This document shows positions 6,572 through 16,273 of a DNA stretch of 64,000 bases, piece by piece. A model generated the notes under the pieces. It did not search any database. It was given only the letters and a program-made list of their open reading frames with translations, and was not told the origin of the DNA. Numbering within the stretch: the first letter of the stretch is position 1; the number at the start of each line of letters is the position of its first letter. Source of the stretch: Glutamicibacter soli (GTDB lineage: Bacteria > Actinomycetota > Actinomycetes > Actinomycetales > Micrococcaceae); contig NZ_POAF01000001.1 of assembly GCF_003309065.1 (NCBI RefSeq), positions 186,001 to 250,000 on the forward strand. Reading direction: 5' to 3'. The translations under genes were made by a program, and so were the position numbers.

Positions 6572-7260
6572 ACCAGGAACTTCCACGCGCGGTGCTGTGG
6601 GACATGGACGGGACGCTGGTCGACACCGAACCCTACTGGTTCCTTGCGCAGCGCGAACTGCTCGGCCGCTACTCGATTGCGTGGACCCAGGAGCAGGCGC
6701 ATGCGCTGGTCGGCAGCGCACTGCCGGATTCGGCCGCGTTTTTCCAGCAGCTCGGGGTTCCGTTGCCTGCCGACGAGCTGATCGGTACGCTGATCGGCAA
6801 GGTGGCGGCACGCACCCGGGCCGAAATCCCGTGGCGTCCGGGCGCCAGACGGCTGTTGCAGGAGCTGGACTCCTTGGGTGTCCCCTGCGCGCTGGTCACG
6901 ATGAGCCGCGGCCCGCTGGCCAAGGTGCTGCTCGATGCGCTGCCGCCGGATACCTTCGACGTGGTGGTGACCGGCGAAATGGTGCGGCGCGGCAAACCCG
7001 ATCCGGAACCGTACCTGCTGGCAGTGCAGCAGCTGTGCCGGAGGCACGAGCTGCCGCAGGAGGCAGCCCGTGCCATGGTCGCCGTCGAGGATTCGCCGCC
7101 CGGAGTGCGCTCCGCCCTGGCGGCTGGGCTGTGCACCGTCGGAGTGCCCAACATGGTGCCACTGGAAGCGCTGCCCGGACTGGTGCGGTGGGACAGCTTG
7201 GCGGGCCGGTCGGCCGCCCAGCTCGGTGCACTGGTGGGCCGGCCGGTCCCGGCAGGCTAG
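6568..7260 (+). CDS. HAD-superfamily phosphatase (PGM/phosphoglycolate-phosphatase type)
   Basis: This 230-residue protein has all four HAD motifs: WDMDGTLVDTEP (nucleophile Asp and acid/base Asp), the VTMS Thr/Ser motif, the Lys in RRGKPDPEPY, and EDSPPG. The cap between motifs I and II is alpha-helical (C1 type). The 4-base overlap with the DeoR regulator suggests a role in the same sugar- or glycerol-phosphate metabolism, perhaps a glycerol-3-phosphate phosphatase, but substrate cannot be read from sequence. Its TAG stop shares a CTAG tetranucleotide (7257-7260) with the convergent permease gene. Confidence 0.88.
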   Translation: MNQELPRAVLWDMDGTLVDTEPYWFLAQRELLGRYSIAWTQEQAHALVGSALPDSAAFFQQLGVPLPADELIGTLIGKVAARTRAEIPWRPGARRLLQELDSLGVPCALVTMSRGPLAKVLLDALPPDTFDVVVTGEMVRRGKPDPEPYLLAVQQLCRRHELPQEAARAMVAVEDSPPGVRSALAAGLCTVGVPNMVPLEALPGLVRWDSLAGRSAAQLGALVGRPVPAG

Positions 7261-8921
7261 TTCGTCAGCACGTCGCGGCGGTTGAATCGGGCCATGCCCG
7301 CAGCTCCGAGTGCCAGTGAAATCAGCAGCAGCACCGCCGGCGGGGTCCAGCTGAAGTCCTCTGCCGGAACCCTCGGGATGGCACCGAACGGCGTGGCGCG
7401 GATGACGTCTTCCGACAGCGAGAATAGCCCGCCGAACATCGCAGCCATCACCGAAATGCCGTAGACGGCCCAGGTGATCGCGGTGGTGGATCGCGGCAGG
7501 TAGCCGAAGGTCAGCAGCTGCAGTCCCAGCATGGAGAGCACCGCCGGCCAGAAAGCCAGGGCTGCGCCCGCGAGCTGTCCGGGATCGGCCGACCCCTGCG
7601 AGGCTGCGCCGGTAAGGTATCCACCCAGCACCAGCATGAACCCGGAGCCGAGCACGGCGATCAGCAGGTGCGCGCCGAGCCAGGTACCGCGGGACAGGGA
7701 GCCTGCCAGCTGCTGCTCCAGCCGTCCGCCTTCCTCCTCGCTGCGCGCCGCGCCCAGACACTGGATGGCGAAGGCTCCGGCCAGCAGGGCGTTGAAGAGC
7801 ACGAAGATGCCCAGCACGCCGTCGAGCATGCTGTGCCCGGTGCCCACGAAGTTACGGGCGAACGGGTTCTGCGGATCCAGCAGCGAGCTCATGGCCTGCG
7901 CCACGGAGCCGAAGAACAGGCCCGAGACGGCTGCTCCGATGAACCAGCCGACCAGCGAGGAGCGCTGCAGGCGCAGCGCCAGTCCCAGCGCGGTAGTGGT
8001 GAAGTTTCCGGCCGCGGCGGGACCCCGGCGTTCGGGCAGCAGTCCGGCGCCCAGGTCGCGGGTGCTTTCAAGGCGCAGGGCGAACAGGCATCCGGCCAGG
8101 CCCAGGCCGACCAGGGCGAGCAGCGGCCACCAGTTGTCCTCGCCGAAGGCGCGCATGTTCTGCGCCCAGCCGACGGGCGAGAACCAGCTCAGTGCGGTGG
8201 GGTCGACCCCGTCGGCCTGCAGGTCGGCGGCGGCGCGGATGAAGTAGAACAGCCCGATCAACGCCACGCCCAGCGAGTTCGCCCCACGGCTGGTGGAGGC
8301 CAGCTGGCCGCAGATCGCGCCCAGGCCGATGAAAGCAAGGCCGGTGCCGGCGATGGACGCGCCCATGACCCAGCTGCCGTTTGCCGGCAGCGCCACCGCC
8401 AGGCACAGCAGGCTGATCAGCAGGCCCGTGACCGCACACAGTCCCGCGGCAACCAGATAGTTCGCCGTCGGGTAGGCATGGCGCCCCAGCGCGGTGGAGC
8501 GCAGCAGTTCGGTGCGCCCGGCTTCCTCATCGGCCCGGCCGTTGCGGGTGACCAAGAAAACCACGGCGAAGCCCAGTGCCACCGCGAGCGTCATCCAGAT
8601 CTTGATGACTAGGATGCCTCCCAGCGAACCAGCCGCATAGGGCAGGCCGGTCATGGCGGCCACCGCAGGGGTGTTGGCCACCTGCGCGTAGGCGTCGCGC
8701 GCGGCCTGCGTGGGGAACGCCTGCTGCTGCGAGTCGTAGACCACCGGGATTATCGAGGCCAGCACCAGCGCCCAGATGGCCAGGCGAAGCCAGTTGCGGC
8801 GCAGGATGAACAGCGCCGCGGTGCCGGCCCCGGTCAGGGTGCCGGTGCCGCGCCTCGAGGCGGTCGGGTGCACCAGGTGCTCGGCCGGCGCATGGCGCCC
8901 GCGGGCGGTTCCGGTGCTCAT
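7257..8921 (-). CDS. ABC-2 type exporter permease (double-length, antibiotic-exporter type)
   Basis: This polytopic membrane protein of about 554 residues has two halves of roughly six helices each, resembling permeases of actinobacterial drug/polyketide exporters. The region after helix one (PVVYDSQQQAFPT) and the soluble TRNGRADEEAGRTELLRST motif are typical of this group. The second half repeats the feature as ARSEEEGGRLEQQLAGSLSR. ATG at 8921 overlaps the ATPase stop as TGATG; a GTG three bases earlier (8924) is an alternative start. It forms an operon with the ATPase and TetR genes. Exported substrate is unknown. Confidence 0.87.
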   Translation of the reverse strand: MSTGTARGRHAPAEHLVHPTASRRGTGTLTGAGTAALFILRRNWLRLAIWALVLASIIPVVYDSQQQAFPTQAARDAYAQVANTPAVAAMTGLPYAAGSLGGILVIKIWMTLAVALGFAVVFLVTRNGRADEEAGRTELLRSTALGRHAYPTANYLVAAGLCAVTGLLISLLCLAVALPANGSWVMGASIAGTGLAFIGLGAICGQLASTSRGANSLGVALIGLFYFIRAAADLQADGVDPTALSWFSPVGWAQNMRAFGEDNWWPLLALVGLGLAGCLFALRLESTRDLGAGLLPERRGPAAAGNFTTTALGLALRLQRSSLVGWFIGAAVSGLFFGSVAQAMSSLLDPQNPFARNFVGTGHSMLDGVLGIFVLFNALLAGAFAIQCLGAARSEEEGGRLEQQLAGSLSRGTWLGAHLLIAVLGSGFMLVLGGYLTGAASQGSADPGQLAGAALAFWPAVLSMLGLQLLTFGYLPRSTTAITWAVYGISVMAAMFGGLFSLSEDVIRATPFGAIPRVPAEDFSWTPPAVLLLISLALGAAGMARFNRRDVLTN

Positions 8922-9850
8922 CACCGCTCGCCTCCCCGGGCCGCGGCCGGCTGGGCCGGCGCGTCGGAGTAGTGGCGCAGGAACAGGTCCTCCAGCGAGG
9001 GCGGGGCGCTGACGAGGTTGCGCGGCGAATGCGCCGCCAGTGCCGCCAGCACACCCGGAAGCTGCGCCGGATCCACGCTGAAGTTGGCGGTGGCGCCGGC
9101 CAGCTGCAGCTCCTCGATGCCCGGCACCGCGGCCAGCTCGGCGGGGTTGCCGGAGATCTCCACGCTGACCTGGGTGCGCTGCAGGTGGCGCAGGTCGGAC
9201 AGGCGGCCGGCTTCCACGGTCTGCCCGTCGCGGATGATCGTGACGGTGTCGCAGAGCTTTTCCACCTCGGCGAAGATGTGGCTGGAAAGCAGCACGCTGC
9301 GTCCCTCGGCGGCGGCTTCGCGGATGCAGGAGGTGAAAACCTGCTCCATCAGCGGATCCAGCCCCGAGGTCGGCTCGTCCAGCAGCAGCAGCTCCGCATC
9401 GGAGGAGAGGGCCGCGACCAGGGCGACCTTCTGGCGGTTGCCCTTGGAGTAGCTGCGGGCCTTCTTCGTGGGGTCCAGATCGAAGCGCTCGAGCAGTTCG
9501 GCGCGGCGGCGCTCATCACTCTGGCCGTGCAGCTTGGACAGGATGCTGATGGCCTGCCCGCCGGTGAGGTTGGGCCAGAGGTTCACTTCGCCGGGGACAT
9601 AGGCCACCCGGCGGTGCAGGGCGACCGCATCTTTCCAGGGGTCTGCGCCGAGCATGCGTGCTTCTCCCCCATCGGCCTTCAGCAGGCCGAGCAGGATGCG
9701 GATGGTGGTGGACTTTCCCGAACCGTTCGGCCCGAGGAATCCGGCGACCTGGCCTGTTTCTACTCGCAGGTCCAGGCCCGTCAGGGCGGCGGTGCGCCCG
9801 TAGTTCTTTGTCAGTCCGCTCACTTCAATGGCCGGGATGGTGGTGGCCAT
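8921..9850 (-). CDS. ABC transporter ATP-binding protein (DrrA-like)
   Basis: This 309-residue nucleotide-binding subunit powers the adjacent permease. Walker A is GPNGSGKST, the signature is the variant YSKGNRQK, Walker B is [13 protein letters not shown], and the switch His is in [12 protein letters not shown]-terminal extension of about 80 residues after the ABC fold is common in DrrA-type exporters. The ATG at 9850 has GGAG nearby, 10 bases after the TetR stop. A much longer open frame extends upstream but only antisenses tetR coding sequence. Confidence 0.92.
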
Positions 9851-9860
9851 GGTGTGCTCC

Positions 9861-10532
9861 TTACCGGGATACGGTGTCTCCCGCGGATCCCGCGGGCGGG
9901 ATATGCGCTGCGTCGGAGGCCAGGTACTCGTTGAGGTATCCCGGGTCGGCGAACAGCCCTTCGGTGTACAGCTCCAGCGTGGGCAGGGCGATTTGTCCGT
10001 AGTAGTCCTTGACCACGGTGGAAAAGTCTTCCGGATCCTTCGGCGGGTACAGCGCAAAGTAGAGCACCAGCGCTCCCAGCGACTGCAGGATCAGGTAACG
10101 TGCCCGGGCCGGCTCGTTGCGGCTCGGGACGATCAGGCCGCTGGATACGGCTTGGTCCAGCAGGGCGAGAGCCTCGTTGATCAGCTGTTCGGTGAACTGC
10201 CTTCCGGCCTGCGCGCCCTCGCGCGCGGAGCGCAAGATGTACAGCAACAGAACCCCGCTCTCCCGCGAGGTAGGCAGGTGGTTGAGCACCTGGCCGGGAT
10301 TGACGCGCAGGGACTCTTCCTTCAGCCGGCGGTAGCGTTCGAGTACCGTGGCATCGCACTCGGCGCGCAATGCCTGTTTGGACCCGAAGTGGTGCCGCAC
10401 CAGCCCGGCGGTGACCTGTGCGCGGGCGGCGATGGCCCGCAGGGATTCGTCGAATCCCTGCGCGGCGAAGGCCTCGATTGCGGCGTCGCGCAACCTGGCC
10501 CGTGCGGTCAGATCATCCTGGGCTGTACTCAC
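9861..10532 (-). CDS. TetR-family transcriptional regulator of the ABC exporter
   Basis: This 223-residue protein has an N-terminal TetR DNA-binding domain (residues about 8-55: [21 protein letters not shown] then [16 protein letters not shown]), followed by an all-helical ligand domain. The GTG at 10532 was preferred. The only extension (to a TTG at 10568) would translate through the direct repeats and lacks a ribosome-binding site. It is first in the operon tetR-ATPase-permease and is probably autoregulatory through the repeats just upstream. Confidence 0.88.
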
Positions 10533-10561
10533 GTATAGGAGGCTACTCCGGTGTATAGGAG
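10533..10561. promoter_or_regulatory. Direct repeat GTATAGGAG upstream of tetR
   Basis: GTATAGGAG occurs at 10533-10541 and again at 10553-10561, two helical turns (20 bases) apart. The first copy abuts the chosen tetR start. Read on the minus strand each contains CTCCTATAC, so the motif overlaps likely -10 or leader sequence. A head-to-tail arrangement is less usual than a dyad for TetR proteins. A role as operator is inferred. Confidence 0.45.
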
Positions 10562-10620
10562 TTGGCAATGGGTTTTTCCTACGGGTTTCAGTCCCTTGTT
10601 TCGCCCCGGTTCAACCGGTC

Positions 10621-11337
10621 TCAGCGAACCGCCGCGGCACGCAGCTGGGTGAGCGCCATTCCCGCGGTGAGCAGGGATTTTCCTGTGTCACCTGCGACCA
10701 GGCCGGAGGGCATCGCTCCGGCCCAGTGCCAGCCGTGCCGTGCCGCCAGCTGTTGCAGGTTCTCCAGGTTGCTCCAGTGCAGGACGGTCGGCTGCGCGGG
10801 GTAGCTTCCCAGCAGCAGGGTGCCCGAGGCGAATCCGCGGTTCACGGCCGCCTCCAGGGTCAGTGCGGTGTGGTTCAGGGTGCCGAGGTCCGGGCGCGAG
10901 ACCACCACCAGCGCGGCCCCGAGCGCTCGGGCCAGATCCGCGATGTTCTCCCCTGCCGCGGTGAGTTCCACCAGCAAACCGCCTGCGCCTTCGACCAGCA
11001 CGGTGTCGTAGTCCGCGGCCAGCTGGGTGATGCGTGCCAGATGGTCGGCCAGCACCGGAAGCTTCGCCACGGCGGCGGACCCGCCCTCGACCAGCGCTGC
11101 GTCCACCGGCGCCATGGGCTCGCGCAGCCGGATGCCTTCGGCAACCAGCAGGCCGGTCGGATGCCCGAGCCAGGCGGCGATGTTCTGGGCATCGCCGGCC
11201 TCCCCTGGCTGTACCCCGGTCTGGGTGGGTTTGTAGACCGCGACGCGGCGTCCGGCGGCAAGCTCTCGGGCGGCGAGGGCGGCGGTGGCGACGGTTTTGC
11301 CCACATCGGTGTCGGTTCCGGTGATGACGTGGATCAT
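10621..11337 (-). CDS. bioD: ATP-dependent dethiobiotin synthetase
   Basis: BioD carboxylates and cyclises 7,8-diaminopelargonate to dethiobiotin. The 238-residue sequence opens with the P-loop TGTDTDVGKT. It then shows VYKPTQTG with the substrate Lys, and VLVEGAGGLLVELTAAGENIADLA with the metal-binding Glu. Length fits the family. The start at 11337 overlaps the P450 stop by ATGA. It is the last gene of the biotin operon. Confidence 0.95.
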   Translation of the reverse strand: MIHVITGTDTDVGKTVATAALAARELAAGRRVAVYKPTQTGVQPGEAGDAQNIAAWLGHPTGLLVAEGIRLREPMAPVDAALVEGGSAAVAKLPVLADHLARITQLAADYDTVLVEGAGGLLVELTAAGENIADLARALGAALVVVSRPDLGTLNHTALTLEAAVNRGFASGTLLLGSYPAQPTVLHWSNLENLQQLAARHGWHWAGAMPSGLVAGDTGKSLLTAGMALTQLRAAAVR

Positions 11338-12515
11338 GGCTGGGTCCTTTCGAAAGTGGCGCGGCGAACGCGGACTGTAGTCGGTGATTGGAAGGAAACC
11401 AGATGGCCCCAGGGTTCGTTGCTGTCGACGAGTTCCAGTTTGGGCCATGCCTCGGCGGCGGTGCGCAGCACCACCTCGGTTTCCATGCGGGCCAGTCCGG
11501 CGCCCAAGCAGCGGTGCAGCCCGAAGCCGAAGACCAGGGAATCGTCCCCCGACTCGGCCAGTTGGCCGCCGGACAGGCGCAGCACCAGTTCATCGCCCGG
11601 GGCGAAGCGTTCGCCGTCCAGCTCCGTATCGACCCGGGTGATGCGGCGCCAGGTGGGGACCGAGCTCGCTTCCAGGAGCACCCGCTGCACCACCCGGGAG
11701 CTGGCGGCGTCGCCAGTGCCCGGATCGGCGCAGTCGGCCCAGTCGCCGTCGTGCAGGGCGCAGAACAGCGCGCTTTGGATGAGCATTGCGGTAGTTTCCT
11801 GCCCGGCGATGCCCAGGAAGTAGGCCAGCGAGACGATGCGTTTGGCGTCCACCCCGGCCTGGTGCAGCGCGGCGTAGAGGTTTCCGTCGTCCCTCGCCAA
11901 GGCATCGGCCACCGTGCCGCGCAGCCAGGCGTGGTATTCGACGGCGCTGCGGGCCAGCTCCTGCTGGCGCTGCGCATCAGGCCAGCCCCAGAACAGTTCC
12001 AGCGAGTCCCGGCTCCATCGTTTGAGCTTCTCAACCGGCGGCACCGGAGTTCCGGTCAAGCGGGCCATGACCTCGGGCGGGATGACGGCGGCCAGCTCGA
12101 CGGCCAAATCCAGCTCCGCCCCGGCATCGAGCTCTTCGCGCAGCTGCCGGCACAGCTGCCCGGTGCGTGAGGTGATGAACTGAGCCTGCGCGGCGACCTT
12201 GGCGGGGCTGAAGAAGCCGGCGACCACCCGGCGCACGGCCAGGTGTTCGGGGCCGGTGGCGCTGGCGAGCACCGGCGGCAGCGCGAAGCGGCCGCGGGCC
12301 AGGACGCGCAGCGTGGCAGGAGCCAGCTCGACCGCTGCATGCAGCGCGTTGGCCGGGGTGAAGTCCTCTGCGCGGCGCAGGATTTCGCGGACCGTCGCAG
12401 GGTCTTCGATGCTGCGGTAGCGTCCGGTTACCGCATTCGGCAAGACCTCCTGCAGCGGCCGGGCCAGGGGTGCGCCGGCCGCTGCCGACAGGGATCCGGC
12501 GTAGGGGCAGCTCAT
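11334..12515 (-). CDS. Cytochrome P450 embedded in the biotin operon (BioI-like by context)
   Basis: This 393-residue protein has the haem-ligand loop FGFGLHRCLGAGLARME (Cys about 336) and the I-helix AGQETT oxygen-activation motif. Around the K-helix, where an ExxR is expected, the sequence reads QRVLLEASSVPTWRRI, and I cannot place a normal ExxR. The stretch between the K-helix region and the haem loop is also short. It overlaps bioF and bioD by ATGA on both sides, so it is co-translated with biotin genes. In Bacillus subtilis the P450 BioI makes a pimeloyl thioester by cleaving long acyl-ACP, and a similar role here is inference from context. No bioC, bioH, bioW or bioZ is visible. Confidence 0.85.
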   Translation of the reverse strand: MSCPYAGSLSAAAGAPLARPLQEVLPNAVTGRYRSIEDPATVREILRRAEDFTPANALHAAVELAPATLRVLARGRFALPPVLASATGPEHLAVRRVVAGFFSPAKVAAQAQFITSRTGQLCRQLREELDAGAELDLAVELAAVIPPEVMARLTGTPVPPVEKLKRWSRDSLELFWGWPDAQRQQELARSAVEYHAWLRGTVADALARDDGNLYAALHQAGVDAKRIVSLAYFLGIAGQETTAMLIQSALFCALHDGDWADCADPGTGDAASSRVVQRVLLEASSVPTWRRITRVDTELDGERFAPGDELVLRLSGGQLAESGDDSLVFGFGLHRCLGAGLARMETEVVLRTAAEAWPKLELVDSNEPWGHLVSFQSPTTVRVRRATFERTQP

Positions 12516-13702
12516 GCTTCAACCTCCAGGATGGCGCCGATGACGCTGCGCAGCGCGGCGGCCAGGGTGTCGGGATGGTGGTGCGCGTGGGCGGTCAGCC
12601 GCAGCCGGGACACGCCGTCGGGCACGCTGGGCGGGCGGAAGCAGTTCACTGCGTAGCCGCGGTCGCGCAGCAGCGCGGCGGCGGCCGCGGCCTGCGCGGG
12701 AGTGTTCATGCGCACCGACTGCACAGGGCCCGCCGAGGCTTCAATGCGGCCGGCCAGCCGCGGCTCGGCGGACAGGGTGTCGCGGATCAGCCGGGTGTTG
12801 GCCGCCAGCTGCGCGATCCGCTCGCCGGTGGCCAGGCTCAGCGCGGCCAGCGCCGCGCCCGCGGCGGCCGGGGCCAGCGCGGTGTCGAAGATGAAGGTGC
12901 GGGCGGTGTTCAGCAGGTGCTCGCGCCACAATTCGGCGTCGTCTCCGCCGAGGAGCACCGCGCCGCCCTGGGCGCCCAGCGCCTTGGACAAGGTGGCGGT
13001 GGCCAGCACGTGTCCGGCCTGCTCCAGTCCCGCCGCGCGCACGGCGGATCCGCCGGGCACCGTCGCCAGCGAATGCGCCTCGTCGACCAGCAGCACCGCC
13101 CCGTACTCGGCGCACAACGCGGCAGCCTGCTCCAGCGGTGCGGCGTCGCCGAGCACCGAGTAGAGCGATTCGAGAACGAGCACCACGCGCGGCTTGGGGG
13201 CCGGGGCGTCGCGGTTGGCGCGCAGCAGCTGCTCGGCGGCGTCCAGGTTGTTGTGCTCGAAGCTGTGCCAGTCGGCGCCGGAGAGCTTGGCCCCGTCGAG
13301 AAGGCTGGCGTGGGCGTGGGCGTCGAGCAGGAACAGGCTGCCCGGTCCGCCCAGCGCGCCGAGCACGCCGAGGTTCGCGGTGTAGCCGCTGGAGAACACC
13401 AGCGCCTGCGAACGGCCGGTGTAGCTGCACAGGGCGTTTTCCAGCTCGCGGTGGATTTCCCAGGTGCCGGAGGCGACCCGGCTGGCCGAAGCGCCGGCGC
13501 CAGCGATGCACAGCGCGTTGATGGCTCCGGTGCGCACCACCGGGTGCGCGCCCAGGCCCAGGTAGTCGTTGGAGGCCAGGTCGTAGCGGGTGGAGCGGGC
13601 GCTGTCGGTGCGCTGCATGTCCCGCTTGGCGCGCACCGCTGAGCGTCCGTGCAGCCAGCCATCCCAGGCCGTGGTCGCAGGAGCGAGCGTCAGTTCAGCC
13701 AC
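12512..13702 (-). CDS. bioF: 8-amino-7-oxononanoate synthase
   Basis: BioF condenses pimeloyl thioester with L-alanine (PLP-dependent) to KAPA. The 396 residues show the alpha-oxoamine synthase features DLASNDYLGLGAHP, the SASRVASGTWEIHRELE loop, VDEAHSLATV with the PLP-contacting Asp and His, and TLSKALGAQGG with the Schiff-base Lys. It begins with GTG at 13702, 8 bases inside the end of bioA, and ends in an ATGA overlap with the P450. Confidence 0.94.
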   Translation of the reverse strand: MAELTLAPATTAWDGWLHGRSAVRAKRDMQRTDSARSTRYDLASNDYLGLGAHPVVRTGAINALCIAGAGASASRVASGTWEIHRELENALCSYTGRSQALVFSSGYTANLGVLGALGGPGSLFLLDAHAHASLLDGAKLSGADWHSFEHNNLDAAEQLLRANRDAPAPKPRVVLVLESLYSVLGDAAPLEQAAALCAEYGAVLLVDEAHSLATVPGGSAVRAAGLEQAGHVLATATLSKALGAQGGAVLLGGDDAELWREHLLNTARTFIFDTALAPAAAGAALAALSLATGERIAQLAANTRLIRDTLSAEPRLAGRIEASAGPVQSVRMNTPAQAAAAAALLRDRGYAVNCFRPPSVPDGVSRLRLTAHAHHHPDTLAAALRSVIGAILEVEA

Positions 13703-15056
13703 CGTGGACCTCCGATACCGCGCCGGTCAGGGCCGTGCCCAAGGTCTGCAGCTGCCCGTCGGTGCAGATGTACGGCGGCATCACGTAGACCAGGTCGCGG
13801 AACGGGCGCACCCAGGCGCCGCATGCAACGGCGGCGCGGGTCACCTCCGCGACCTTGACCGGTTCGTGCAGCTGGATCACCCCGACCCCGCCGAGTACCC
13901 GCACCTGCCGCACGGCCGGCAGCTTCCGGGCGCCGGCCAGCGAGCTGTTCAGCCCGCGTTCAAGCCGGGCCACCTGGGCCTGCCACGGCGCAGGTTCGGA
14001 GTCGGCCGCACCGGGAGAGGTGAGCAGATCCAGCGAGGCGCAGGCCACGGCGCAGGCCAGCGGGTTTCCCATGAAGGTGGGACCGTGCAGCAGCGCGGAT
14101 CCGGCGGTGGCTCCGCCCGAGGCCAGCACCCGGGCGATCTTGTTGGTGCAGAGCATCGCGGCCAGGGACAGGTAGCCGCCGGTCAATGCCTTGCCCACGC
14201 ACATGATGTCCGGCTCGATGCCTGCGTGCTCCACGGCGAAGAGCTTGCCGGTGCGCCCGAAACCGGTGGCGATCTCGTCAACGATCAGCAGCATCCGGTG
14301 CTCGTCGGCGATCTCGCGCAGCACCTGCAGCACCCGCGGCGGGTAGATGAACATGCCGCCGGCGCCCTGCAACAGAGGTTCGCAGATGATGCCGGCCAGC
14401 TCTGCGGCGTGTTCGGCGGCCAGCCGGCGGGCCCGGGCTGCCCAGAGCTCCAGTTCGTCCTCGTCGTAGAGCCAGTCCCCGGCGATGGTGCGCTCGGCGG
14501 CGGGCGGGCGCGGGAGGAACAGCTGCTCGCTCGCCAGCGGGGCAAAGGCGGCGTGCATGCCGTCGACCGGGTCGCACACGCTCATGGCGGCGAAGGTGTC
14601 TCCGTGGTAGCCCCCGCGCAGGGCCAGGAAGCGGCGGCGTTCGGGCCGTCCGCAAGCGTCCTGGTACTGCAAGGCCAGCTTGAGCGCTACCTCGACGCTG
14701 ATGGATCCGGAGTCGGCCAGGAACACGTGGCGCAGTCCTTCCGGAGCGAGCCCGACCAGCCGTTCGGCCAGCTCGATGGCGGGTTCATGGGTCAGCCCGC
14801 CGAACATCACGTGGCTGAATGTATCGATCTGCGCATGCGCGGCGGCGTCCAGCACCGGGTTACGGTAGCCGTGCACCATGGACCACCAGGAGGCCATGCC
14901 GTCGATGACCCGATGTTCAGCGCCGCGGGCATCGCGCAGCGTGAGTTCGGCCCCGCCGGCCCCGCTCACCGCGTAGAGCGCGCCGGCATCCAGCGGCGCG
15001 TAGGGGTGCCAGAGCAGCCCGGAATCCCTGCTCAGCAGGTCGGTTGCGGTGCTCAT
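13695..15056 (-). CDS. bioA: Adenosylmethionine-8-amino-7-oxononanoate aminotransferase
   Basis: BioA transaminates KAPA to DAPA using SAM and PLP. The 453-residue class-III aminotransferase has LWHPYAP near the N-terminus, [13 protein letters not shown], the [20 protein letters not shown] cofactor region, [31 protein letters not shown], and the PLP lysine in [10 protein letters not shown]. The ATG at 15056 overlaps bioB by ATGA. Longer in-frame upstream sequence lies inside bioB and is not used. Confidence 0.95.
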
Positions 15057-16273
15057 GCGTTCGGTCCTTGCTGGGTTCCGGCGCCACGGCGGCGCAGCAC
15101 CGGTTCGCGCGCGGCGCTCGGTCCGCAGCCGGTGGCGGCACTGCCGCATCCGGTGCCGCAGCCGCTGGCGCAACCGCCGGCCGGGGCTTCGTGGGCGGAG
15201 GCCGCGTGGGCCGCGTGCTGCAGGCGGCGAGCCACCTCGGCCGGGCTGGAGGCCTCCTGGCCCAGGACCACGAAGCCGGCGTCGGCGATCATGTCCAGGT
15301 CCTTGGCCGCGCCCTGGCCTTCGCTGGTGAGGTAGTCGCCCAGGAAAATCGAGTTGGCGACCTCCAGCGCGGTGGACTGCAGCGAGCGCAGGTGCATTTC
15401 GCGGCCGCCGGCGATGCGCAGTTCCTTGTCCGGGCAGGCCAGACGCACCAGGGCCAGGATCCGCAGGCAGGCCAGCGGGGTCAGCAGCCAGGTTCCCTCC
15501 ATCGGGGTGCCGTCGAAGGGCATCAGGAAGTTGACCGGGATGGACTCCGAGCCCAGCTCACGCAGGGCGAACACCGCCTCGATGAGCTGCTCCGGGGTTT
15601 CGCCCAGGCCGACAATGAGCCCGGAGCAGGAGGACAGGCCGGCAGACTGCGCCTGCTGCACGGTGTCCACCCGGTCCTGGTAGCTGTGCGAGGTGCAGAT
15701 CTCCGGGTAGAGCGATTCGGAGGTGTTCAGGTTGTGGTTGTAGGCATCCGCCCCGGCGTCCTTGAGCCGCGCGGCCTGCCCGTCCTTCAGGATGCCCAGG
15801 CAGGCGCAGACCTCGACCTGCGGGTGCTCTTCCTTGAGCTGCTCGACCATGGTGGCCACGCGGTCCACGTCGCGGTCGGTGGGGCCCTTGCCGGAGGCGA
15901 CCATGCAGACGCGGGAGGCGCCGCCGGCGATGCCGTAGCCGGCCTGGGCGACTGCCTCGTCGGGCTTGAGCCAGGTGTACTTCAGGATTTCGGCCTTCGA
16001 GCCCAGTCGCTGGGAGCAGTAGGTGCAGTCTTCCGGGCACAGGCCCGACTTCAGGTTGACCAGGTAGTTGACCTTGACGGTGTTGCCGAAGTGCTTGCGG
16101 CGCAGGGTGCCGGCGGCGCCGACCAGCGGCAGCGTGGCGAAGTCGGGGGTGGCCAGCACCGCCAGCGCCTCGGCCTCGGTGAGGCGGTGCCCGGCGGCGA
16201 TGCGGGCGGCGAGCTGGTCTGCGTCGAGCGCCGCCGGTGCGGCGGTATCTGCGGCTGCGGTGTTCAAGGTCAT
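15053..16273 (-). CDS. bioB: Biotin synthase with cysteine-rich C-terminal tail
   Basis: BioB inserts sulphur into dethiobiotin by radical SAM chemistry. The CxxxCxxC cluster motif [12 protein letters not shown] places C79, C83 and C86. [27 protein letters not shown] and GLIVGLGE follow as in the family. The protein is 406 residues, about 50 longer than most BioBs. The extra C-terminus carries C368, C372, C376 and C383 in a Gly/Ala-rich setting (CASGCGTGC, then TGCG). The start at 16273 follows GAAAGG. It is the first operon gene, about 70 bases from two BioQ-like boxes. Confidence 0.95.

Follow-up and report, generated by a model that had tools for sequence, protein, structure and literature searches.

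The window analysed here, a stretch of 64,000 nucleotides from Glutamicibacter soli, carries on its minus strand the gene row bioB-bioA-bioF-P450-bioD, whose fourth member (11334-12515) encodes a P450-type haem protein of 393 residues. The genes bioB (15053-16273), bioA (13695-15056, start at 15056 inferred) and bioD for dethiobiotin synthase (10621-11337) match TIGR00433, TIGR00508 and TIGR00347, respectively, above the cut-offs. For bioF (12512-13702), encoding 8-amino-7-oxononanoate synthase, the best match is TIGR00858 with 299 bits, below the cut-off of 426, and the assignment rests in addition on the operon position. Overlaps of four bases join bioB to bioA, bioF to the P450 gene and the P450 gene to bioD, and an overlap of eight bases joins bioA to bioF, the starts of bioA and bioD being the inferred ones. 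As the initial annotation had stated, the P450 gene overlaps both neighbors by ATGA: the forward strand reads TCAT at the bioF stop and P450 start (12512-12515) and again at the P450 stop and bioD start (11334-11337), and because of the latter overlap the start of bioD is most likely 11337. A four-base bioF/P450 overlap is also found in 15 of 19 relatives in which a separate P450 gene directly follows bioF (script-chosen starts).

BioB of the window has a Cys-rich C-terminal tail and, behind it, the sequence RRRGAGT...PNA; relatives share the RRRGAGT end whether or not they have the Cys-rich part. By analogy with BsaP (PMC11099021), the Cys-rich tail may serve as an auxiliary segment built into the enzyme. 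Behind bioD lie genes for a TetR regulator and for an ABC exporter pair (7257-10568, minus strand); among the 22 loci read first, the regulator and both exporter genes were all matched behind bioD only in L031-L034. Among named relatives, the one closest to the P450 comes from G. protophormiae (77% identity), followed by other Glutamicibacter and Paeniglutamicibacter records.

The haem-thiolate loop of the P450, FGFGLHRCLGAGLARME (residues 329-338, 11502-11531, minus strand), is intact, and so is the I-helix motif AGQETT (residues 237-242, 11790-11807, minus strand). ExxR is a structural motif present in nearly all P450s. At the corresponding K-helix site (11673-11684, minus strand) the window P450 reads R278-V-L-L281 when aligned with 22 ExxR-keeping relatives (EGLR in 21, ESLR in one) and ten other P450s, i.e., both residues of the motif are replaced. 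An ExxR hidden by a shifted register was rejected, as the K-helix stretch of the window P450 contains no E..R; among the 45 Micrococcaceae-type members described below, a raw E..R occurs within this stretch in 11, in five of them in register. The TWRR motif follows (residues 288-291, 11643-11654, minus strand), with W289, R290 and R291 identical in all 69 members of the clade described below; the Arg at the R291 position, also present in the ten other P450s, is presumably a haem-propionate contact. The distance from R291 to the haem Cys is 44 residues; in the ten other P450s it is 57-58, and the 22 relatives have 56-58. The meander (residues 315-328, 11532-11573, minus strand, placed by spacing and alignment) is therefore short by about 12-14 residues. 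The absent region is where one would expect the E-R-R triad to have its third residue. The PF00067 match of the protein is barely above the cut-off (25.3 versus 22.8 bits). Its assignment to the P450s is based on the haem-thiolate Cys (69 of 69 clade members), on fold and profile, and on the I-helix (A/G)Gx(D/E)T(T/S); what it lacks is the K-helix ExxR and a meander with the third triad Arg. The initial annotation had described the haem and I-helix motifs as intact, the ExxR as not placeable and the stretch ahead of the haem loop as short, leaving it to an alignment to reveal a normal ExxR; all three descriptions hold, and the alignment with the 22 relatives and ten other P450s reveals none at the window site.

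Related P450s were searched in 98 related genomes and then, by profile, in 395 Micrococcaceae genomes. The latter delivered matches of at least 337 bits in 95 genomes, with the next listed matches at 212 bits or less; those lower-scoring matches that were aligned (L023, L024, L052) resemble CREJ and have normal motifs. With a bioF profile, 114 of the same 395 genomes reached at least 314 bits. Of the 395, 94 contain P450 and bioF, 20 bioF only, 280 neither and one (G156) P450 only, on a contig that begins at the P450. In all 94 genomes with both, the two matches lie on one contig, their starts 701-1987 bases apart. Four of the 95 P450 matches (G328, G163, G147, G314) cover only the first two thirds of the profile; truncated copies were rejected as the cause, since three of the four can be aligned over their full length as a single piece and the remaining one ends at a contig end.

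Forty-five members of this type were tabulated, comprising the 22 first-read loci, the window, 20 later loci, G156 and G511; 44 are from Micrococcaceae and one (G511) is from another family. The initial annotation had proposed a survey of whether such a P450 always lies within biotin loci, and all 45 adjoin bio genes, with bioF in view in 44; four further loci, read later, adjoin bio genes as well. The usual order is bioF-P450-bioD, and most Micrococcaceae loci have the P450 among bioB-A-F-D. The order bioF-bioD-P450 occurs together with a second type of bioB (32-36% to that of the window) in genomes G023, G026, G394 and G511 (loci L048, L049, L103 and L136), and six tabulated loci (L047, L093, L094, L095, L097, L098) gave no bioB match. 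No gene for a redox partner, ACP or acyl ligase was found beside the P450, most loci having been matched for bio genes and a few others.

An order-level profile search (297 genomes, E <= 1e-66) found eight P450s of this kind, seven of them in Micrococcaceae, and a phylum-level search (346 genomes) found three, one of which is a distant form from a 7-Mb genome (G867) that adjoins bioD, bioF and bioB. In the family of this genome, hereafter the second family, a related P450 is present in 73 of 121 genomes (E <= 1e-40) and bioF in 100 (E <= 1e-70), including all 73 with the P450. The P450 and bioF share a contig in 69 cases, in 67 of them with match starts no more than 12 kb apart (median 2.5 kb). 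A bio gene is in view in 20 of the 21 second-family loci that were read, the exception being L185, whose bioF match lies on another contig; in many cases the P450 gene and bioD are convergent or separated by several kb. Seven more loci were fetched after a class-level search (118 genomes): L207, L208 and L209, from three further families, adjoin bio genes, and L210-L213, which are more distant, have none in view. In a tree of 79 proteins (midpoint root, for drawing only) 69 form one clade with support 100/100, apart from ten other P450s. This clade consists of the 45 tabulated members, the 21 from the second family and L207-L209, and a bio gene is in view in 68 of the 69. L209 is sister to the 45 Micrococcaceae-type members (99/95) and also has a short spacing.

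ExxR is intact in all 22 members of the second form (the 21 loci and L207), in L208 and in the ten other P450s, reads Q..R in L209, and is intact in five of the 45 Micrococcaceae-type members, all five of which share a frame with bioF. Counted to the haem Cys, the second form, L208 and the other P450s have a spacing of 56-58 residues and L209 one of 40; of the 45, 44 have 40-50 and L049 has 59, filled by an insertion. These alignments are most simply read as a single loss of the meander, before L209 split off, with erosion of ExxR later in several lines; as an alternative to loss only, ExxR may have been re-gained in the fused lines. Since all 45 members share the haem loop at 39-77% identity, and 44 the short spacing, the departure from the usual frame is not a matter of chance or sequencing error.

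The structure model of the window P450, built with 23 sequences, shows a P450 fold with a mean pLDDT of 90.7. Block 331-340, at the haem loop, has a pLDDT of 70, below most of the model, as might be expected for a model without haem and meander. In Foldseek, CREJ (PDB 5gwe) ranks first with a TM-score of up to 0.81 and 27-28% identity, and BioI (CYP107H1) ranks 14th with 0.73-0.77 and 19-20%; the sequence scores are 94.7 bits for CREJ and 50.2 bits for BioI, and BioI is absent from the best 60 matches of the ExxR-keeping form. CREJ comes from Corynebacterium glutamicum and, as the title of PDB entry 5xjn indicates, acts on phosphorylated aromatics. Orthology to BioI was rejected on score, identity and rank. 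Because CREJ is nearer than BioI both in sequence and in fold, a BioI-like role of the window P450 would be convergent, not inherited.

Nine positions, H91, R95, R291, H334, C336, T241, T242, W289 and R290, are invariant in all 69 clade members, and the first seven of these are presumably haem and oxygen-activation positions; H334, R335 and C336 of the FGFGLHRCLG loop are the same in all 45 Micrococcaceae-type members. The I-helix Glu E240 is kept in 66 of the 69 and replaced by Ala in L096 (AGQATT) and by Tyr in L097 and L098 (AGQYTT), which argues against a uniform mechanism in those lines. In six orthologue pairs the P450 has a dN/dS of 0.11-0.36 and BioF one of 0.21-0.35, the P450 value being the higher one in three pairs (L054/L035, window/L031, window/L032). 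Because the haem and oxygen residues are invariant and dN/dS resembles that of BioF, the protein probably still functions as an enzyme, with a P450 frame that has been remodelled. The suggestion of the initial annotation that it might have lost activity and kept a structural role thus found no support: the residues of haem binding and oxygen activation are retained, and purifying selection acts on the gene.

Two of the rival explanations bear on this point. A haem-binding but catalytically dead P450, serving BioF or BioD as a structural partner or sensor, would explain why ExxR and meander are missing and why the haem-loop block has a mean pLDDT of only 70. We regard this as very improbable given that T241, T242 and the haem-propionate positions never change within the clade and E240 rarely does, that dN/dS is about as low as that of BioF, and that clade relatives near bio genes keep the full P450 frame. 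Still further down stands a decaying pseudogene or an assembly error, to which the unusual motif, the short loop and the four part matches among 95 could be attributed; it is already refuted by the orthologues, with their general haem loop, nearly general short spacing and purifying selection, and the part matches themselves proved to be three full-length genes and one that stops at a contig end.

BioF and the P450 lie in one open frame in eight of 43 loci, distributed over four genera; 21 of the loci were tested for it and a further 21 were judged by gene ends, the window being the remaining one. The stop-free bioF-P450 frames are those of G030, G142, G159, G188, G212, G168, G274 and G324. 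In six of them the likely start is an ATG preceded by a purine-rich stretch, giving 765-822 residues; in G030 and G212 it is a GTG, giving 742 and 784 residues, respectively. These frames would be translated as one BioF-P450 protein, and the frame shared with BioF is the strongest pointer to the step that the P450 serves. A model of the fusion (pLDDT 72.7, pTM 0.57) is too poor for domain orientation.

Four routes to pimeloyl thioester, namely BioC-BioH, BioI-BioW, BioZ and BioE, are listed in PMC12915131. The initial annotation had expected the P450 to be anticorrelated with other pimeloyl enzymes, which was followed up in part: BioW (PF03744) was found in none of the 24 P450-bearing and 20 P450-less genomes searched (44 in total), with B. 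subtilis and M. jannaschii as positive controls, and BioC exceeded the TIGR02072 cut-off in none of 58 genomes, all of which gave weak matches to this strict model (passed by one of 14 controls). Each of four genomes has three or four KAS III-like matches, the own genome three, none of them on the contig of the window (C11); a BioZ-like enzyme may be a pimeloyl source in these genomes. The P450 is missing from 20 of the 114 bioF-bearing genomes in Micrococcaceae and from 27 of the 100 in the second family, which must therefore have another pimeloyl source or need a supply. Fifteen loci from the 20 Micrococcaceae genomes were read (L109-L123), most with bioB-A-F-D in a row; none has a replacement gene of P450 size between bioF and bioD, the two matches being at most 286 bases apart in all 15. 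Ten neighbors annotated from five such loci included no evident replacement candidate. The bioA or bioB matches are in pieces in L111, L122 and L123, and L125 (G052, short bioF match) is also broken, so that some of the P450-less loci may be losing the biotin pathway.

BioI of Bacillus makes pimeloyl thioester, the compound used by BioF. The initial annotation had suggested a BioI-like or diverged enzyme as provider of the pimelate moiety. What stands of this is a diverged, biotin-dedicated P450 as the most likely supplier, given the 45 of 45 loci beside bio genes, the eight of 43 shared frames and the lack, in the genomes searched, of BioW matches and of BioC matches above the cut-off; descent from BioI does not stand (50 bits versus 94.7 for CREJ, 19-20% identity). 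We consider it probable, on genomic grounds, that the P450 makes pimeloyl thioester for BioF from a longer acyl thioester. It would be an active, biotin-dedicated haem-thiolate enzyme that, with a redox partner, oxidatively cuts a longer acyl chain carried as ACP or CoA thioester and hands the C7 pimeloyl thioester to BioF, working like BioI but drawn independently from a different P450 branch. The Micrococcaceae branch would have lost the meander by deletion, with ExxR eroding afterwards in most lines, and its fold would be stable in the absence of the usual E-R-R clamp, perhaps through contact with BioF. An active P450 of the biotin locus with another reaction, such as trimming or oxidising a short-chain precursor, salvaging biotin-like compounds or making a biotin analogue, appears unlikely, albeit less so than a dead protein. 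It would agree with the fact that the nearest solved relatives do not include BioI, with the second-family gene often being convergent to or several kb from bioFD and not in one operon, and with MkpG and a BioF-like enzyme, which can make a KAPA analogue (PMC13336041, section 2.3). Against it stand the short overlaps and shared frames with BioF, the user of pimeloyl thioester, and the position among bioB-A-F-D in most Micrococcaceae loci.

We favour the supply of pimeloyl thioester to BioF, and are inclined, with more reserve, to extend it to a separate, undescribed actinobacterial pimeloyl route in which a non-BioI P450 clade feeds BioF directly, sometimes as one protein, and in Micrococcaceae does so without E-R-R triad and meander, so that a P450 could work with no such clamp. 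Neither an actinobacterial biotin-operon P450 nor a P450 without triad and meander was recognised as described in the titles and abstracts covered, subscription papers lying mostly outside them. The clade and its natural BioF fusions are a direct candidate for the source of the C7 biotin precursor. They also constitute a natural experiment, with a full frame, with ExxR and a short meander, or with neither (most of the Micrococcaceae type), beside the same genes, by which the need for the E-R-R triad becomes testable.

Among known systems, BioI of Bacillus subtilis is the closest in presumed role: like the window P450 it is tied to biotin genes, the window gene also lying within a biotin operon, is expected to feed BioF and has a P450 fold. 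BioI keeps a normal P450 frame. The identity of 19-20% is below the one-family rule of >40% (PMC3599690), and BioI is described as unique to B. subtilis and redundant there (PMC12915131). CREJ is the nearest solved P450 by sequence and fold, but identity is 27-28%, and the aligned CREJ-like P450s of these genomes keep ExxR and meander. The own genome contains such a second, CREJ-like P450 with normal ExxR and meander (L052:2741-3862, plus strand, contig C19), around which no bio genes were matched in a 7-kb stretch.

The CYP157 P450s of Streptomyces also have a K-helix without proper ExxR; in the examples given in PMC3599690 only the Arg is changed (EVLW, EQSLW) and the genes are conservon-linked, whereas the window P450 has both residues changed (RVLL), a short meander and linkage to biotin genes. 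Kinship with CYP157 was rejected on motif and linkage. A pimeloyl-providing enzyme joined to BioF is known from the BioWF fusion of Corynebacterium amycolatum and Desulfosporosinus (PMC9544090); there BioW, an acid-CoA ligase, occupies the N-terminal side, whereas here a P450 occupies the C-terminal side of BioF. BioE, as outlined in PMC12915131, cuts long acyl thioesters oxidatively to pimeloyl, the reaction proposed here for the P450, but is a diiron oxygenase and thus a non-haem, ferritin-like protein. In the mkp cluster of Streptomyces the P450 MkpG and the BioF-like MkpD are, by deletion, both needed for alpha-methyl-KAPA (PMC13336041, section 2.3), and therefore pairs of a P450 and a BioF-like enzyme work in actinomycetes; the likeness to the P450 and BioF of the window is one of description, and the product of the mkp pair is an antimetabolite.
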